This document shows positions 10,221 through 52,212 of a stretch of DNA of 52,212 nucleotides, piece after piece. Source of the stretch: Chthoniobacter flavus (GTDB lineage: Bacteria > Verrucomicrobiota > Verrucomicrobiia > Chthoniobacterales > Chthoniobacteraceae); NCBI GenBank assembly GCA_945861435.1, contig CAMAUX010000037.1:1-52212 (forward strand), given 5' to 3'. Position numbers and translations under genes: made by a program. Position 1 is the first letter of the stretch, and each line of letters opens with the position of its first letter. The notes beneath the pieces were generated by a model, which was not told the DNA's origin, did no database searches, and worked only from the letters and a program-made list of their open reading frames with translations.

Positions 10221-10358
10221 GCCCCAACCCTACTTCCACGCGTCACCCGCCTCAACCCTCATTTGCCGCCCACTCAGTATTCAGGGCTTCGTGGCGCCCA
10301 GAGTTGCAGGCCACATCGGCACCGGAAGCTGACATCCATCACGCAACCCATCCCCCCC

Positions 10359-13124
10359 ATGCGCCGCCTGCTAATCGCCATCACCGCCGCCGCTCCCGGC
10401 CTCCTCGCCGCGGTCGAACCCTCACCCGATGACGCGGCATTCTTCGAGTCTCGCATCCAGCCCCTGCTGCAAAAGCGCTGCTTCGAATGCCACTCACACG
10501 AGAAAAAAATCAAGGGAGGCCTCGCCCTCGATTCACGCAACGGCTGGCAGCACGGCGGCGACAACGGCCCCGCACTCATCCCGGGCGACACCGAAAAGAG
10601 CCTCCTCATCAAGGCCGTCCGCTACCTCGACTCGGACTTCCAAATGCCTCCCAAGGCAAAGCTGCCGCCAGAGGAAATCGCCCTCTTTGAACAATGGATC
10701 AGGCAGGGCGCACCCGACCCGCGCGCGGAAACGGCTGCGGTCAGCAAGCGGGTCATCGACATCGAACAAGGCCGCCGCTTCTGGGCCTTCCAACCCGTCG
10801 CCAACCCCGCGCCCCCGGCCGTCCGCAACACCGCATGGCCGCTGGATTCGATGGACCGCTTCATCCTCGCGCGCCTCGATGCAGCGAACCTCGCCCCGGC
10901 CGCCGATGCCGACCGCCCCACATGGCTGCGCCGGGTCAGCCTCGACCTCACAGGCCTGCCACCAGCTCCCGCCGACATCGCGGCGTTCCTCAAGGACAAC
11001 GCCCCGGACGCCTGTGAAAAGGTCGTCGACCGTCTCCTGTCCTCGCGCGCATTCGGAGAGCGCTGGGCGCGCCACTGGCTCGATCTCACCGGCTACGCCG
11101 ACATGATGGGCACCTCCAACAGCGTCTTCGCCGAACACGCATGGCGCTACCGCGATTACCTCATCAACGCCTTCAACGCCGACAAACCCTTCGACCAGTT
11201 CGTCCGCGAACAGATCGCCGGCGACCTTCTCCCCGCCCACTCTCCCGCGCAACGCGCAGACCACATCACCGCCACAGGTTTCCTCATGGTCGGCGACGTC
11301 GAGATCGTCAATCCAGACAAGGCGCGCATGGAGGCAGACCACATCGACGCCCAGATCACCAAGATCGGCGCCGCCTTCCTCGGCATGACCCTCGGCTGCG
11401 TGCGCTGTCACGACCACAAGTTCGACCCCATCGGCGTCCAGGACTACTACGGCATCGCAGGCATGCTCCGCAGCTCCCCCTCCACACACAAAATCCCCTT
11501 CGGCGTCTGGAGCCACCTCAACGCCACCGAACTCCCCGAATCCCCGGACCAACTCGCCTCCCGCAAACAACGCGAAGCCGCACACGAACAGTCCATCGAC
11601 GATCTCAAAAAACAGCAGACCGGACTCAACGACGAAAAAAAGTCCGTCGCCGCGCAACTCACCCAGATCGAGAAGACCGAGAAGGATGCCGCCAAACCCA
11701 GCACCAACCGAGCTCCAGCGACCACCCCCAAACCCGCCACCAAAGCGGACGCAGCATGCGCGGGCACGGCAACCAACACCTCCACCACGGTTCCAGAAAC
11801 ACCCAAACCCTCTCCAGACAAGGAAACGCTCACCAAACGCCGCACTGAGATCGACGACAGTCTCAAGAAGCTCGGCACGCAAATCCAACACGCTGAATTC
11901 TTCCGATCGATGGTCCCGAAGGCCTTCGCAATGCGCGACAGCGAGGCCCCCGCCGACATGCCCGTCTACATCCGTGGCAATCCCTACGCACCGGGCCCCG
12001 TCATCCCACGCGGCGTCATGCGAGTCGCATCATGGGCTCCATTCCCAGCCATCCCTCAGGGACAAAGCGGCCGACTTCAGCTCGCAGACTGGCTCGCAGA
12101 CCCGCGCAACCCACTCACCGCGCGCGTTGCCGTGAACCGCGTCTGGCAGAAGCTTTTCGGCGAGGGTCTCGTTCGCAGCGTGGATTACTTTGGTGAACGC
12201 GGCGAACGCCCTTCGCATCCGGAGCTGCTCGATCATCTGGCCACGCGATTCATGCGAGAGGGTTGGTCTCCGAAGAAACTACTCCGCGCTCTCGTGCTCA
12301 GCCGCACCTACCGCATGGCAGGCACCAACAACGCCACCGCCCTCCAGACCGACCCGGACAACCGCCTCCTCTGGCGCATGAACCGCCTCCGCCTCGATGC
12401 CGAGGCCATCCGCGACTCCCTCCTCGCCGTCAGCGACGAGCTCCAACCATCCACCGGCGGCCCGGCTCTGGTCCTTGAGAACCCCGCCAACACAGGCTCC
12501 CTTGTTCAGAAAGGCATCAACCCACCCTCCTACACCCACAGAGTTCCCCGGCCTTCTCAGGAGTTCGAACGGACGATCTACCTTCCCGTCATGCGCGGCG
12601 GATTCGCCGGCCCGGATTTCGCAGGACCCGACCGCCTCCGCGGCACATTCGATTTCATCGATCCCGCCCAGATCGCAGGGCAGCGCCCGCAGACCGTCGT
12701 TCCGACCCAGGCGCTTTTCCTCCTGAACAACGACCTGCCCCGCAAGCGCGCAGCCGCCCTTGCAAAAGATCTCGTCCAGAAGCATCCCGACCGCGGGGCC
12801 CGAGTGGAAGAGCTCTGGCTGCGGGTGCTCAGCCGTCCAGCCACCCCCGAGGAACGCGCGGACGCGCACGCCTTCCTTGACCAGCTTACAAAGCCGCCCG
12901 CAACCGCTCTTGAGACCAAGGCCCCCAAAGCCACGCCCTCCACGCCCTCCACGCCCTCCACGCCCTCCACGCCCTCCACACCCTCCACGCCAGCCACGCC
13001 AGCCACGCCAGCCACGCCATCGACGTCCAAGCCGATATCCCCGGATATCACCAACGAGAGCGCCGCATGGACCGAGTTGATCCACAGCCTCATGGCCTCC
13101 AACGAATTCATCTATCGCCTATGA
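10359..13124 (+). CDS. PSCyt1-DUF1549-DUF1553 protein (PSD1 module 2)
   Basis: About 921 residues from the ATG at 10359, which directly gives a signal peptide (MRRLLIAITAAAPGLLAAV). Upstream in-frame codons add only a non-signal-like extension. The PSCyt1 heme motif is CFECH (41-45); CVRCH (347-351) with DHKFDP marks DUF1549. A lysine- and glutamate-rich probable coiled coil (about 405-520) is interrupted by a Thr/Pro-rich linker. DUF1553 follows. Near the C-terminus is a Thr-Pro-Ser/Thr-Pro-Ala run encoded by a 9-bp tandem repeat (12933-13022). The expected DUF1501 partner lies 1.4 kb downstream, beyond the transposase gene and repeat array. Confidence 0.87.
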   Translation: MRRLLIAITAAAPGLLAAVEPSPDDAAFFESRIQPLLQKRCFECHSHEKKIKGGLALDSRNGWQHGGDNGPALIPGDTEKSLLIKAVRYLDSDFQMPPKAKLPPEEIALFEQWIRQGAPDPRAETAAVSKRVIDIEQGRRFWAFQPVANPAPPAVRNTAWPLDSMDRFILARLDAANLAPAADADRPTWLRRVSLDLTGLPPAPADIAAFLKDNAPDACEKVVDRLLSSRAFGERWARHWLDLTGYADMMGTSNSVFAEHAWRYRDYLINAFNADKPFDQFVREQIAGDLLPAHSPAQRADHITATGFLMVGDVEIVNPDKARMEADHIDAQITKIGAAFLGMTLGCVRCHDHKFDPIGVQDYYGIAGMLRSSPSTHKIPFGVWSHLNATELPESPDQLASRKQREAAHEQSIDDLKKQQTGLNDEKKSVAAQLTQIEKTEKDAAKPSTNRAPATTPKPATKADAACAGTATNTSTTVPETPKPSPDKETLTKRRTEIDDSLKKLGTQIQHAEFFRSMVPKAFAMRDSEAPADMPVYIRGNPYAPGPVIPRGVMRVASWAPFPAIPQGQSGRLQLADWLADPRNPLTARVAVNRVWQKLFGEGLVRSVDYFGERGERPSHPELLDHLATRFMREGWSPKKLLRALVLSRTYRMAGTNNATALQTDPDNRLLWRMNRLRLDAEAIRDSLLAVSDELQPSTGGPALVLENPANTGSLVQKGINPPSYTHRVPRPSQEFERTIYLPVMRGGFAGPDFAGPDRLRGTFDFIDPAQIAGQRPQTVVPTQALFLLNNDLPRKRAAALAKDLVQKHPDRGARVEELWLRVLSRPATPEERADAHAFLDQLTKPPATALETKAPKATPSTPSTPSTPSTPSTPSTPATPATPATPSTSKPISPDITNESAAWTELIHSLMASNEFIYRL
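12933..13022 (+). repeat. 9-bp tandem repeat (10 units) inside PSD1 module 2
   Basis: Ten 9-bp units: five identical ACGCCCTCC, then ACACCCTCC, three ACGCCAGCC and ACGCCATCG. They encode Thr-Pro-Ser six times, Thr-Pro-Ala three times and Thr-Pro-Ser once. The period keeps the frame, so unit gain or loss only changes linker length. It lies between the DUF1553 core and a short conserved C-terminal tail. Confidence 0.95.
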
Positions 13125-13521
13125 GACTCAACCACCATGGACCGCGACTGTTTTGCGCATCCCACGGATGGGTGAGCGCAAAGGCCACCGCTCTCCGCAC
13201 GCACACACACTCCGGCGAGCCGGAGGCTCGACATCACCCCACCTGCGCTCATTCAGGGCTTCTCGATATTCAACGAACCGCTCCGCCACCAGTGGCCACC
13301 ACCAGCCCAGAGCACCATCTGCGACTACTCTGCCCCCCTCGCGAATTGGCAATGGCGCAGGCAATCCCTGTCCCACCCTACGCGCACTCCGGCGAGCCGG
13401 AGGCTCGCGAGCGATTAGCCGGTGGTGGAGCGAGCTCCTGCGAGCGCAACCACCGGTCCCCTTACACACACGCGATGCGCTCCGGAGGATGCGCGAGAAC
13501 CGCCTGCAAACGCACGGCGCG
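13125..13521. repeat. Repeat-rich intergenic region with hairpins, 3' of the transposase gene
   Basis: No gene is seen in these 397 bases. The palindrome-like string CTCCGGCGAGCCGGAGGCTCG occurs in two copies, near 13209-13229 and 13387-13407. At about 13419-13455 a hairpin has outer arms CCGGTGGT and ACCACCGG, the same outer stem as in the long repeats at 29077 and 52139, but with different inner sequence. These are probably diverged members of the repeat family lying on the other side of the transposase gene. Confidence 0.65.
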
Positions 13522-13968
13522 TCACCACAAATACCGCTCGTCATACTCCACCAGCCCCTGCTGCAACATCGCCACATACTCCTCCTGAAACGTTCTCACC
13601 CGGTGATGCTCCTCCTGCCGCAAGATATACCCTCTTACCGTCTCCACATGCGACGCGCTGACGGTGAATCCCCCATACCCCTCCTGCCATGCGAACAGGG
13701 GCATGCGCAATTCACGATGGATCCACAAGGAGGACTCACTTTTGACCTCACGCATCACGCCCGAAAGGCGGTGCTCCGCCCGCAACCCAACCAGCACATG
13801 CACATGGTCCTTGGTGCCGCCCACCGCATGCGAAATGCACCGATTCCCACGGACGACACCACCGATATACTCGTGAATCCGCCCGCGCACATACGGCGTG
13901 ATCAAGCCCGCGCGCCCCTTGGTGCTGAACACCACATGGTAATGCAACGAAAGATGCGTCGATCCCAC
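13522..13968 (-). CDS. IS200/IS605-type Y1 (HUH) transposase, REP-associated-like
   Basis: 148 residues, the full length of TnpA/RAYT-type single-strand transposases. The HUH motif is H55-V-H57 in DHVHVLV. The catalytic tyrosine is Y114 in VRGYILRQEEHH, with Q118 on the same helix. The N-terminal LHYHVVFSTK and the GYGGFTVS segment are typical. These enzymes cut and join single-stranded DNA at hairpins. No TnpB gene is adjacent. Hairpin-bearing repeats flank it on both sides, as in REP/RAYT arrangements: three 180-bp units start about 50 nt from its start codon. It lies between PSD1 module 2 and its DUF1501 partner. It appears intact. Confidence 0.88.
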   Translation of the reverse strand: MGSTHLSLHYHVVFSTKGRAGLITPYVRGRIHEYIGGVVRGNRCISHAVGGTKDHVHVLVGLRAEHRLSGVMREVKSESSLWIHRELRMPLFAWQEGYGGFTVSASHVETVRGYILRQEEHHRVRTFQEEYVAMLQQGLVEYDERYLW

Positions 13969-14017
13969 CCCTCACCCATCTCGCGCTCCTGCCGGAGCGC
14001 AACCCGCTCCAATGCGT

Positions 14018-14455
14018 CATCCGGTGGCTCGCTCCATCCGCTGCGCGGACTCCGCTCAGCACCGGCTATTCGCGCTCATGCCTCCGGCATGAACGGCACC
14101 CACCTGCCTTCGGTGTACTCAGATTCAACCTTTACGCGGCCCATCCATCGGATTGATCCCACAACGAATCATCACCGCTCAACCCTCCTCCACTCCTCAT
14201 CCGGTGGCTCGCTCCATCCGCTGCGCGGATTCCGCTCAGCACCGGCTATTCGCTCTCATGCCCCCGGCATGAACGGCATCCCTTCGCCTGCGGCGCCCCC
14301 GGATCCAACATCTCCGCCACCCTTCCTCCGGATTCATCCCGCAACGACTCACCGCCTCGCAACCCTCCTCCACTCCTCATCCGGTGGCTCGCTCCATCCG
14401 CTGCGCGGACTCCGCTCAGCACCGGCTATTCGCTCCCATGCCTCCGGCATGAACG
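14018..14455. repeat. Array of three 180-bp repeats with REP-like hairpin cores
   Basis: A core of about 77 bp begins at 14018, 14198 and 14378, an exact spacing of 180 bp. Each core runs from CATCCGGTGGCTCGCTCC to a hairpin with arms CATGCC and GGCATG. Loops are TCC in copies 1 and 3, with a C change in copy 2. Spacers between cores 2 and 3 also match partly (a shared CAACCCTCCTCCACTCCTC). The cores are related to the minus-orientation form of the long repeats elsewhere (29077-29148). The array separates the transposase start from DUF1501 module 2. Confidence 0.9.
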
Positions 14456-14519
14456 ACCACTCCTTTCCATCCCCGTTCCGCGATCCGCAGTCTCGTCCTC
14501 TCAACCTCCCCGTCACGCC

Positions 14520-15920
14520 ATGAACTCCCCACTCCCCCTCTCCCGCCGCCAATGGCTTCGCAACACCGCCTGCGGCTTCGGCGCACTCGCACTCCAGGAC
14601 ATCCTCCGCGCCGCATCGGATCCGCTGAGCGCACGCATTCCCGGTGTCACACCCAAGGCCAAGCGCGTGATCTTCCTGTTCATGGCGGGCGGACCATCGC
14701 AGATGGATCTCTTCGACCCCAAACCCTACATCACCGAGCGTCACGGGCAGACGGTGCAGTCGCCGTTGCGCGCTGAGGTCACGCAGGTGGGCACGGAAAA
14801 GTATCTCGCACTCGGCGCCATGGCACCGGTGCAACCGCGCGGACAGTCCGGCACCACCATCTCCGACCTGATGCCCCACCTCGCCTCGGTCGCAGACGAC
14901 CTCTGCCTCCTCCGCGGCATGAACGCCGACAACCCCCAGCATGCCGGCGCCACGCTCCAGTTCCACACCGGCACCTTCGCCGAAGTGCGGCCATCGATGG
15001 GCGCATGGATCAGTTACGGGCTCGGCACCGAAAACAAGGACCTGCCTTCGTTCGTGAGCGTCCAACCCGGCGGCGTTCGCGAGTACGGATCAGCCTTCCT
15101 TCCCGCCATCCACCAAGGCACGGCGCTCAGCGTTCCCCTCGACGACAAGACCTCCCCGGTCCAGAACCTCCGCAACGCCTCCCCCACAGCCGAGGCCCAG
15201 CGCGCGCGCATCGACCTCATGCAGCGCATGAACCGCCGCCTCACCGGCCAACTCCAAGGCGACCCGGGCATGGAGGGCATGATCCAGAATCTTGAACTCG
15301 CGTTCCGGATGCAAACAACGACCCCGCAGATCGTCGACATCTCCCGCGAGACCGACGCCACCAAGCAACTCTACGGCATCGGCGGAAAGGACACCGACAA
15401 GAACGGTCGCGCCTGCCTGCTCGCACGGAAACTGAGCGAGGCAGGCGTGCGCTTCGTTCAAGTCACCATGGGCGGCTGGGATCACCACGGCGACATCCGC
15501 GGCAACCTGCCCAAACTCTGCGCCCAAACCGACCAACCCGTCGCCGCACTCCTCAAGGACCTCAAATCGCGCGGACTCCTCGAGGACACGCTCGTTCTTT
15601 GGAGCGGCGAATTCGGACGCACCCCGTGGAGCCAGGATCTCAGCGGCACAGCGCCCATCGACAAACACGGACGCGAGCACCAACCCGAGAGCTTCTGTGC
15701 ATGGATGGCCGGTGGCGGCGTGAAACCAGGCCTCACCTTCGGCACCACCGACGACATGGGGTACCGCGTGGTGGAGGGCAGAATCCACGTGCACGACCTG
15801 CACGCCACCCTCCTCCACCAACTCGGCATCGATCACACCCGCCTTACCTGGCGCCATCTCGGCCGCGACTTCAGGCTCACCGACGTCTACGGCGAGGTCG
15901 TCCGCGAGATCCTCGCCTGA
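14520..15920 (+). CDS. DUF1501 Tat-exported protein (module 2)
   Basis: 466 residues. The Tat signal LSRRQWLRNTACGFGALAL lies at the N-terminus. Core motifs are FMAGGPSQMDLFDPKP (about 57-72), MGGWDHHGD, LWSGEFGRTPW, and the terminal GRDFRLTDVYGEVVREILA, which closely matches module 1. The start follows the third 180-bp repeat by about 65 nt, so its promoter or leader is repeat-derived or immediately downstream of repeats. Its natural partner is the PSD1 gene ending at 13124. Enzymatic role is unknown, as for the family. Confidence 0.87.
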   Translation: MNSPLPLSRRQWLRNTACGFGALALQDILRAASDPLSARIPGVTPKAKRVIFLFMAGGPSQMDLFDPKPYITERHGQTVQSPLRAEVTQVGTEKYLALGAMAPVQPRGQSGTTISDLMPHLASVADDLCLLRGMNADNPQHAGATLQFHTGTFAEVRPSMGAWISYGLGTENKDLPSFVSVQPGGVREYGSAFLPAIHQGTALSVPLDDKTSPVQNLRNASPTAEAQRARIDLMQRMNRRLTGQLQGDPGMEGMIQNLELAFRMQTTTPQIVDISRETDATKQLYGIGGKDTDKNGRACLLARKLSEAGVRFVQVTMGGWDHHGDIRGNLPKLCAQTDQPVAALLKDLKSRGLLEDTLVLWSGEFGRTPWSQDLSGTAPIDKHGREHQPESFCAWMAGGGVKPGLTFGTTDDMGYRVVEGRIHVHDLHATLLHQLGIDHTRLTWRHLGRDFRLTDVYGEVVREILA

Positions 15921-22232: not shown

Positions 22233-22374
22233 GAGCTGTATCCGTGGAGTGAAGGGGGAAAGACGGACGAGTTAAAGGCTGCTGGTTCAGCACAGAATAC
22301 CCCAACGCATCCGAAATCCCCCTCAATCCCGGAGCTCTCACTCCAAAGGCATAGGCAGTCCCGGATGGCACGCA

Positions 22375-22670
22375 GTTCAGGGCATCGGTCGTGCCTTGTG
22401 GAGGGCGCCCGGGCGAGCAAGAGGCGCTCGCAACTTCAGCATGCCGGGGGGATGACAGCCAACAACCGGTCGGTGTACGCCATCCGCAACGCGGATGGCG
22501 GGAACCACCGGATCACCGTTTCCCTCGCGACGCGCCCCGGCAGCGGGCGCGAGAAGGGCGATGATGCGAGGAAGAGTTGCCGGTCCCTATTCGCTCCACT
22601 ACTCGCACTCGTCTGCGCGCCATCGTCGGCCCCAAATCCCACGGCGAAGCCCTTTATCTAAGTGCCATTC
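22375..22670 (+). repeat. Long multi-hairpin repeat, copy A
   Basis: Starts GTTCAGGGCATCGGTCGTGCC and runs through CAACTTCAGCATGCC, the hairpin region with CGCCATCCGC/GCGGATGGCG arms, and the GCGGGCGCGAGAAGG block. A tail of about 110 bp ends GAAGCCCTTTATCTAAGTGCCATTC. It is nearly the reverse complement of copy B (28929-29215) over its whole length, tail included; other copies share only the head and hairpin part. It lies between the two divergent photolyase-type genes, so it sits in their promoter region. Terminal inverted repeats are degenerate here. Confidence 0.9.
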
Positions 22671-28928: not shown

Positions 28929-29215
28929 TAGTTAAGGGCTTCACCGTGGTTTTTTGGGGCGACGATGGCGCGCAGGCGAGTGCGAGGAGTGGAGTCGATA
29001 GGGACCGGCAACACTTTCTCGAATCATCGCCCTTCTCGCGCCCGCTGCCGGGGCGCGTCGCGTGGGAAACGGCGATCCGGTGGTTCCCTGCGTTCGCGAT
29101 GCGAACTACGGTCACCGACCGGCTATGGGCTCCCATGCCTCCGGCATGCTGAAATTACGAGTGCCTCTTGCTCGCTTGGGCTCCCTCAACAAGGCACGAC
29201 CGATGCCCTTAACTA
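28929..29215 (-). repeat. Long multi-hairpin repeat, copy B, with 14-bp terminal inverted repeats
   Basis: The ends are TAGTTAAGGGCTTC (28929-28942) and GATGCCCTTAACTA (29202-29215), inverted with one mismatch in 14. The length is 287 bp including the terminal TA. Inside are three hairpins: arms CATGCC/GGCATG (29134-29148), GTTCGC/GCGAAC (29092-29106), and outer CCGGTGGT with ACCGACCGG. Orientation is opposite to copy A, to which it is the closest match, including the tail carrying GACGATGGCGCGCAG. No coding frame is credible, so it looks like a non-autonomous mobile element. Confidence 0.9.
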
Positions 29216-29235
29216 AGTGCCATTCTTGTCCGTCC

Positions 29236-29493
29236 CAAATGGCTCTTGGGTAAGGGCATCAGCCATGCCTCGATGGGGTAGCTCAAAACGGGCGCTCTAA
29301 CTGTCTGCATTCCGGAGGCATGAGAGAAATTAGCCGGCCGGTGTACGCCATCCGCAACGCGGATGGCGGGAACCACAGGAATCCCAGTTTCCCACACGAC
29401 GCGCCACGGCATGGGGCGCGAGAAGGCCGATGTTGGGAGCGAGTTCGCTAGTCCCTAACGACTCCCATTTAGGTTAATAACTAAGTGCCATTC
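29236..29493 (+). repeat. Long multi-hairpin repeat, copy C
   Basis: Begins with AAATGGCTCTTGGGTAAGGG and ends CTAAGTGCCATTC. It includes the head TAAGGGCATCAGCCATGCC, an imperfect CATTCC..GGCATG hairpin and the perfect 10-bp inner stem CGCCATCCGC/GCGGATGGCG (29346-29368, loop AAC). The GACGCGCC...GGCGCGAGAAGG hairpin follows. It is in tandem with copy D about 270 bp on. Confidence 0.88.
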
Positions 29494-29506
29494 TTCTCGG
29501 CCCCAA

Positions 29507-29760
29507 ATGGCTCTTCGGTAAGGGCATCAGCCATGCCTCGATGGGGCAGCTCAAAACAGGCGCTCTGACTGTCTGCATGCCGGAGGCATGAGAGAAGCCG
29601 GTCGGTGTACGCCATCCGCAACGCTGATTGCGGGAACCACCGGAATCCCATTTCCCCATACGACGCGCCCCGGCATGGGGCGCGAGAAGGCCGATGTTGG
29701 GAGAGAGTTCGCCTGTCCTATCGACTCCCCAAATCCGCGTCGGATTACCAACCACTCAGG
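29507..29760 (+). repeat. Long multi-hairpin repeat, copy D
   Basis: Direct tandem copy of C: AAATGGCTCTTCGGTAAGGG head, perfect CATGCC-GGA-GGCATG hairpin near 29575-29590, and the CGGTGTACGCCATCCGC region. The inner stem is degraded here (GCTGATTGCG instead of GCGGATGGCG), and the GGCGCGAGAAGGCCGATGTT block follows. The segment from 29761 to the CopG antitoxin start contains no recognised gene. Confidence 0.85.
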
Positions 29761-40470: not shown

Positions 40471-40740
40471 GTGATGGGCATCGGTCGTGTCGTGCCTTGG
40501 TGAGGGAGCCCGGGCAGGCAAAAGGCACTCGCAACTTCAGCATGCCGGAGGCATGGGAGCCCATAGCCGGCCGGTGTACGCAATCCGCAACGCGGATCGC
40601 GGGAACCACCGGATCATTTGTCCCCACGCGATGCGCCCCGGCATGGGGCGCAAGAAACGCCCCACCACACGCGGGGAAATTTTGCCGGTCTCTATAAGCT
40701 GTCCCCATTTGGCTCTATTCGAACCGGTCCTCATTCCACG
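40471..40740 (+). repeat. Long multi-hairpin repeat, copy E
   Basis: The head ATGGGCATCGGTCGTG... is shared with copies A and B. The CAACTTCAGCATGCC block, the CATGCC-GGA-GGCATG hairpin (40541-40556 area) and inner stem CGCAATCCGC/GCGGATCGCG (one mismatch) follow, then a GCCCCGGCATGGGGC hairpin. The tail differs from A and B. The intergenic region from 39974 to 40852 (879 bases) has no supported gene and consists largely of these two repeats and their flanks. Confidence 0.85.
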
Positions 40741-52025: not shown

Positions 52026-52212
52026 CCGAGACAAGGGCATCAGCCCTGCCTCGTTGAGGCTCGCGCCTTGCTGGGAAAGCCCGAGCAAGAAACGGGCCCT
52101 CGCAACTTCAGCATGCCGGAGGCATGAGAGAAAATTAGCCGGTGGTAGACGCAGTCCGCAAAGCGGACGAAGGGAACCACCGGACCACGTTCCCCCACGC
52201 GACGCGCCCCGG
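52026..52212 (+). repeat. Long multi-hairpin repeat, copy F (cut by right edge)
   Basis: ACAAGGGCATCAGCCCTGCCTCG head, CAACTTCAGCATGCC block, CATGCC-GGA-GGCATG hairpin, then the cleanest double stem in the window. Its outer arms are CCGGTGGT (52139-52146) and ACCACCGG (52176-52183), and its inner arms GTCCGC and GCGGAC (52154-52168, loop AAA). The element continues past 52212. Confidence 0.88.

Follow-up and report, generated by a model that had tools for sequence, protein, structure and literature searches.

A short transposase gene of Chthoniobacter flavus, tnpA, is flanked by hairpin modules that recur across the genome. Gene and modules probably make up a REPtron-like system around a TnpA-Y1 enzyme of subclass 1.2, in which an NTAG foot is predicted to serve in recognition or as a guide. 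The locus lies in the window, the 52,212-nucleotide stretch of DNA analyzed here; this corresponds to contig C37 in a draft genome of 5.35 Mb.

The gene (13522–13968, minus strand, GTG start) encodes a protein of 148 amino acids that matches Pfam Y1_Tnp (1.1e-21). Its HUH motif is DHVH (residues 54–57), followed by WQ (94–95) and by Y114 within YILRQEEHH; the intact Y1 transposase with complete HUH and tyrosine motifs of the preliminary description is thereby confirmed. Across 21 relatives these three motifs vary little or not at all. The NCBIfam IS200 model scores tnpA at 61.1 bits, above its cut-off of 55, and matches all 21 relatives scanned (E below 0.01). The RAYT model REP_Tyr_transpos (NF047646) gives 20.6 bits, below its cut-off of 80, and is also matched by 16 of the 21 relatives (best 1.5e-5). 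An AlphaFold2 model of the transposase (pLDDT 89.6) finds its best PDB matches in the TnpA proteins of IS608 and ISDra2; the RAYT structure 4er8 ranks 30th, yet superposes at 3.0 Å.

Subclass 1.2 is tabulated by Quentin et al. (2018; PMC6006769) with the motifs DH[IV]H, WQ and YIKNQKEHH, a length of 148 amino acids and "no" under associated REP. The C. flavus protein shares the DH[IV]H, WQ and Y---Q--HH motifs, the median length of 148 amino acids, the low copy number and the conserved C-terminal stretch. Motifs, length and NCBIfam scores, set against the published description rather than in a tree with published members, place tnpA as a putative TnpA-Y1 of subclass 1.2. It departs from the 2018 table in having flanking hairpin modules, the absence of a REP being a recorded property of the subclass and not what defines its grouping. 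The published subclass is also mainly from Cyanobacteria and Bacteroidetes (PMC6006769), whereas the module-flanked genes found here come from several phyla. Membership of the RAYT or TnpA-REP enzymes (class 2) is rejected, because the protein has YILRQEEHH instead of Y---NP and falls short of the RAYT model. Thus, of the REP/RAYT system initially proposed, the pairing of a transposase with REP-like repeats is well supported, while the RAYT label is not. tnpA is present in one copy, and paralogues within a genome are diverged, without near-identical copies. Five further Y1_Tnp genes occur in this genome (C15:51197, C20:30348, C64:13435, C78:564 and C86:1094); when read in the correct frame, those on contigs C15, C64 and C78 resemble subclass 2.1 in their NHVH and YIDLNP motifs.

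Upstream of tnpA, three cores begin at 14018, 14198 and 14378, spaced by exactly 180 bp as first described. TRF reports a tandem array of period 180 with 2.5 copies at 13997–14455 (score 669), and a 28-nt core pattern has three matches in the window against none expected (100 shuffles). The start codon and the beginning of the gene-proximal core are about 52 nt apart, close to the 50 nt originally given. Read on the gene strand, the upstream unit opens with hairpin A (CATGCC-GGA-GGCATG); a short linker with TAG at its end leads to hairpin B, which has a CCGGTG...CACCGG stem and, in addition, an inner stem. All three units lie on the minus strand. In copy 1, hairpin A is the CATGCCGGAGGCATG stem-loop at 14076–14092 (DNA fold, covariation), the TAG foot is at 14066–14068 (ATAG), and hairpin B is at 14021–14065 (DNA fold; covariance model 7.1e-16). 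Copies 2 and 3 are A-TAG-B units at 14201–14274 and 14381–14454 (covariance model 3.4e-16 and 2.3e-16). Only the unit adjoining the gene has a hairpin C, absent from the other two; it lies at 13982–14001 on the minus strand, 13 nt from the start codon, and is supported by DNA folding and by a counterpart in relatives.

At the other end of the gene, a diverged A-TAG-B-C module (13392–13494, plus strand; covariance model 9.8e-12) is inverted relative to the upstream units and points at the gene. It comprises hairpin A at 13392–13408, a TTAG foot ending at 13418, B at 13419–13456 and C at 13477–13494, and so takes in the diverged hairpin that had been noticed on this side. In one point the preliminary description needs correction: each unit is built of several parts and not of a single core. 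Covariation among copies is seen in hairpin A and in the inner stem of B: five pairs have changed on both sides compared to 1.8 in shuffles, and sliding the partner lowers the share of paired cells from 97.9% to 27–43%. The outer stem of B, nearly invariant in this set, says little on covariation because the copies were selected partly by sequence.

The genes on either side are taken to be of PSD1 type (10263–13124) and DUF1501 type (14520–15920). Here they are separated by 1,395 nt. In seven related genomes, whose DUF1501 relative is 84–86% identical, they lie about 20 nt apart without a transposase, an empty site which shows that the gene and modules arrived as an insertion at roughly 13137–14519 (ends approximate). 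Inside this segment, a further A-type hairpin (CGAGCCGGAGGCTCG) at 13209–13230 is apparently a decayed module (model E 0.06). About 10 tandem copies of a 9-bp unit (CCACGCCCT) occupy 12931–13018, near the 3′ end of the gene preceding the insert. At another locus (L048), a homologue 70% identical to tnpA also sits between DUF1501-type and PSD1-type genes, in an arrangement different from that of the window.

The closest named relatives of tnpA are mostly from Verrucomicrobiota, and 28 of 40 genomes of the family contain a homologue. Homologues are found in at least 569 stretches of a species-genome collection; the best 80 of these come from Verrucomicrobiota, Planctomycetota, Acidobacteriota, Bacteroidota, Pseudomonadota and others. 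The flanks of the relatives repeat this arrangement, with A-TAG-B-C preceding the gene and an inverted module following it; their stems include CCGGTGGT, CCGGGGGT and CCGGCGGT, and in distant homologues CCCAGCGC and others. At 79 of 96 usable homologue loci, from several phyla, the inverted-repeat flanks exceed 30 of 30 shuffles, and their mean score is 50.7 compared to 19.1 for flanks paired from different genomes. The 17 loci that failed this test are mostly distant ones; L075 and its duplicate L078 failed despite an A-B-C-C′-B′-A′ unit just upstream of the gene.

The foot was examined by listing every perfect stem of at least 7 bp with its preceding trinucleotide, without preselecting TAG. 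TAG precedes such stems upstream at 52 of 99 loci (the next-best trinucleotide at 8) and downstream, on the other strand, at 45 of 99, where some loci are related to each other and the 99 are not independent cases. The four-base feet in the relatives' hairpins are TTAG (52), GTAG (36), ATAG (22) and CTAG (1). The type of stem is likewise distributed with the enzyme. On the tree of transposases, 5 changes suffice for the CCGG type of stem, compared to 20.2 in shuffles, and a single clade of 38 rows, starred in the tree, includes 32 of the 34 CCGG-stem loci. Members of this clade come from Verrucomicrobiota, Planctomycetota, Acidobacteriota, Pseudomonadota and Sumerlaeota, so that hairpin type goes with the gene and not with the host; the two have co-evolved across phyla. 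One homologue (L097), from a MAG titled Klebsiella pneumoniae, groups with acidobacterial ones, and the MAG is probably mislabelled.

Modules are numerous elsewhere in the C. flavus genome, where copies were counted by pattern and model searches. The strict pattern TAGCCGGTGN{10,40}CACCGG has 37 matches and its reversed control none. With the covariance model the count is at least 146, a lower bound with 150 of 5,980 candidates scored, and one above the "more than about 100 palindromic copies" by which REPs are recognized. Genome counts are also lower bounds because the assembly breaks at module repeats, many of which lie at contig ends. Contigs C9, C49, C54, C57 and C93 end within modules, as does the window at 52109–52212. 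A single covariance model recovers ten modules in the window below E = 1e-10, in agreement with the suggestion that the cores beside tnpA and those of the long repeats are related. The dispersed ones it identifies lie at 22437–22511 (plus strand, in a MITE-like element of about 300 bp), 29077–29151 (minus, in a MITE-like element at about 28934–29224), 29305–29379, 29573–29643 and 40538–40612 (all plus), and 52109–52183 (plus, where the assembly breaks in the repeat and the contig ends). Two tandem copies of a repeat of about 268 bp that contains modules occupy 29210–29718.

Across the family, the cores are also associated with the enzyme. The strict core is present in 26 of 28 family genomes with a homologue and in 4 of 12 without (Fisher p = 2.3e-4, a comparison confounded by phylogeny). 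That description held that genomes with the repeats but without any related transposase would speak against the association, a situation partly touched by one relative, G005. Its draft genome contains 37 strict cores in two stem types, and a check for a subclass 1.2 gene found none, only IS200-like Y1 genes. Any one of three causes would account for it: the gene was lost, the draft has a gap, or the cores have another mover.

In some relatives, the modules are arranged in pairs. G038 has 157 strict-pattern matches; among the 100 of these that were listed, 39 convergent pairs lie 124–131 nt apart and none is divergent, which is the layout of a REPIN. Convergent pairs at fixed spacing also occur in G036 and in G016, where the left and right B hairpins of a pair can differ and the spacing is 188–193 nt. 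Unlike REPINs, these pairs frequently lie inside elements that have outer terminal repeats. No inverted pair of the G038 kind was noted in the C. flavus genome away from tnpA, where the copies are single or in direct tandem; the REPIN layout was thus not observed here.

The nesting bears on how the modules multiplied. Many modules of this genome, of G016, G036 and G038, and of part of G005 lie inside longer elements whose terminal inverted repeats are unrelated to them; module amplification may thus partly be another enzyme's work. Here the elements measure about 300 bp, have AATGGCACTTAGTTAA/TTAACTAAGTGCCATT ends and contain one module each; those in the window are at 22365–22669 and 28934–29224, and also at about 29223–29740. 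The ends match 37 times genome-wide with up to 2 mismatches. The outer repeats are GCTGAATCGACATTC in G038, where some copies show apparent YTAR-like 4-bp target duplications, GTATCTGTTTAGC in G036, and others in G016 and G005. Such outer repeats weaken the Y1 enzyme as sole explanation of the dispersed copies. They would fit modules that are passengers of MITE-like elements moved by unrelated transposases, with the Y1 enzyme contributing little to the present numbers, a rather improbable account. Against it, the left part of the MITE-like element is missing from about 19 of the 26 distinct strict copies whose flanks in this genome are long enough, and G036 and G005 contain modules and pairs that stand alone. 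The outer repeats also vary between genomes while the inner module plan is constant, and passenger status leaves unexplained both the flanking of the gene across phyla and the co-evolution with it.

That tnpA is an ordinary insertion sequence of the IS200/IS605 family, with these hairpins as its ends, is unlikely, even though its protein exceeds the IS200 cut-off and its predicted fold and catalytic residues are those of IS608 and ISDra2. A classical IS would be expected in multiple near-identical copies, and it is on copy number that this identity is rejected: the gene is single, and the modules far outnumber it. Moreover, the flanking modules are inverted, unlike the same-strand terminal hairpins of IS608. 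The hairpins could also be transcription terminators or RNA-stability elements near genes, next to which the transposase lies by chance, as the gene-proximal modules are intergenic and able to fold. This is very improbable, given that no T run follows the hairpins in the sequences read, that Rfam gave no match, and that the inverted flanks at 79 of 96 loci and a hairpin type that tracks the enzyme tree are not the product of chance. PADLOC and phage records likewise gave no match, and plasmid records two distant ones.

Compared with known systems, the arrangement resembles a REPtron, but its enzyme is not a RAYT. With the class 2 REPtrons, in which RAYT/TnpA-REP enzymes are paired with GTAG REPs, it shares a single-copy Y1 gene, flanking repeats of foot and hairpin that are abundant in the genome, and inverted pairs, the last in relatives. 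The foot is of the NTAG form, ATAG or TTAG at the tnpA locus and GTAG at 36 of the 111 hairpins of relatives, where REPs have GT[AG]G. Y---Q--HH in place of Y---NP, a score below the RAYT cut-off and a three-hairpin module set it apart. The class 3 TnpA-Y1 enzymes of Planctomycetes and Acidobacteria, described as lying between IS and REPtron, are likewise non-class-2 enzymes flanked by secondary structures in high copy; however, their foot is CnGA and their motif Y----Q, as opposed to NTAG and Y---Q--HH.

The sequence establishes the anatomy, the orientation of the flanking modules, the foot, the copy number, the co-evolution with the enzyme and the empty site; binding, cleavage, the guide role of the foot and mobilization are inferred. 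In the proposed mechanism, the enzyme would bind hairpin B and its NTAG foot on single-stranded DNA, with the foot serving as a guide, as it does in TnpA-REP and IS200/IS605 enzymes. Y114 would then cleave the strand through a 5′-phosphotyrosine link, and the enzyme would rejoin the strands. Cleavage by TnpA-REP enzymes requires the GTAG foot, which can also determine where they cut (PMC8266576); since NTAG keeps the AG, the cut is predicted here at CT dinucleotides. Modules, single or as inverted pairs, would in this way be mobilized by the transposase, spreading or being excised as non-autonomous elements, and the gene with its flanking modules would be able to enter a new site. Because hairpin C adjoins the ribosome-binding region, its binding might, by conjecture, also regulate tnpA.

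A search of largely open-access literature found no paper that pairs subclass 1.2 with repeats. Among Verrucomicrobia, GTAG repeats had already been reported for Opitutus terrae (PMC3733652). Di Nocera et al. (2013) also mention that Rhodopirellula baltica has many genes for tyrosine transposases with repeats (PMC3733652), and some of these may represent the same system. The preliminary description, which stressed how little such systems are described in this phylum, was too narrow, because the association spans several phyla.

Taken at the level of sequence, these observations point to a repeat partner for the subclass 1.2 branch, recorded until now without one, and to a widespread and largely overlooked partnership of enzyme and repeat. 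Whether subclass 1.2 constitutes a second, independent lineage of REP partners outside the RAYTs, spread over many phyla and with a three-hairpin NTAG substrate, its inverted pairs repeatedly becoming cargo or core of foreign-moved MITE-like elements, is an evenly balanced question. If true, the REP partnership would reach beyond class 2 (RAYT) and class 3 into the branch closest to the IS200 transposases, and would bear on whether REP systems arose once or several times from IS200-like elements. A hairpin type that travels with its enzyme across phyla would also provide a large natural set of cognate pairs from which rules of recognition may be drawn.
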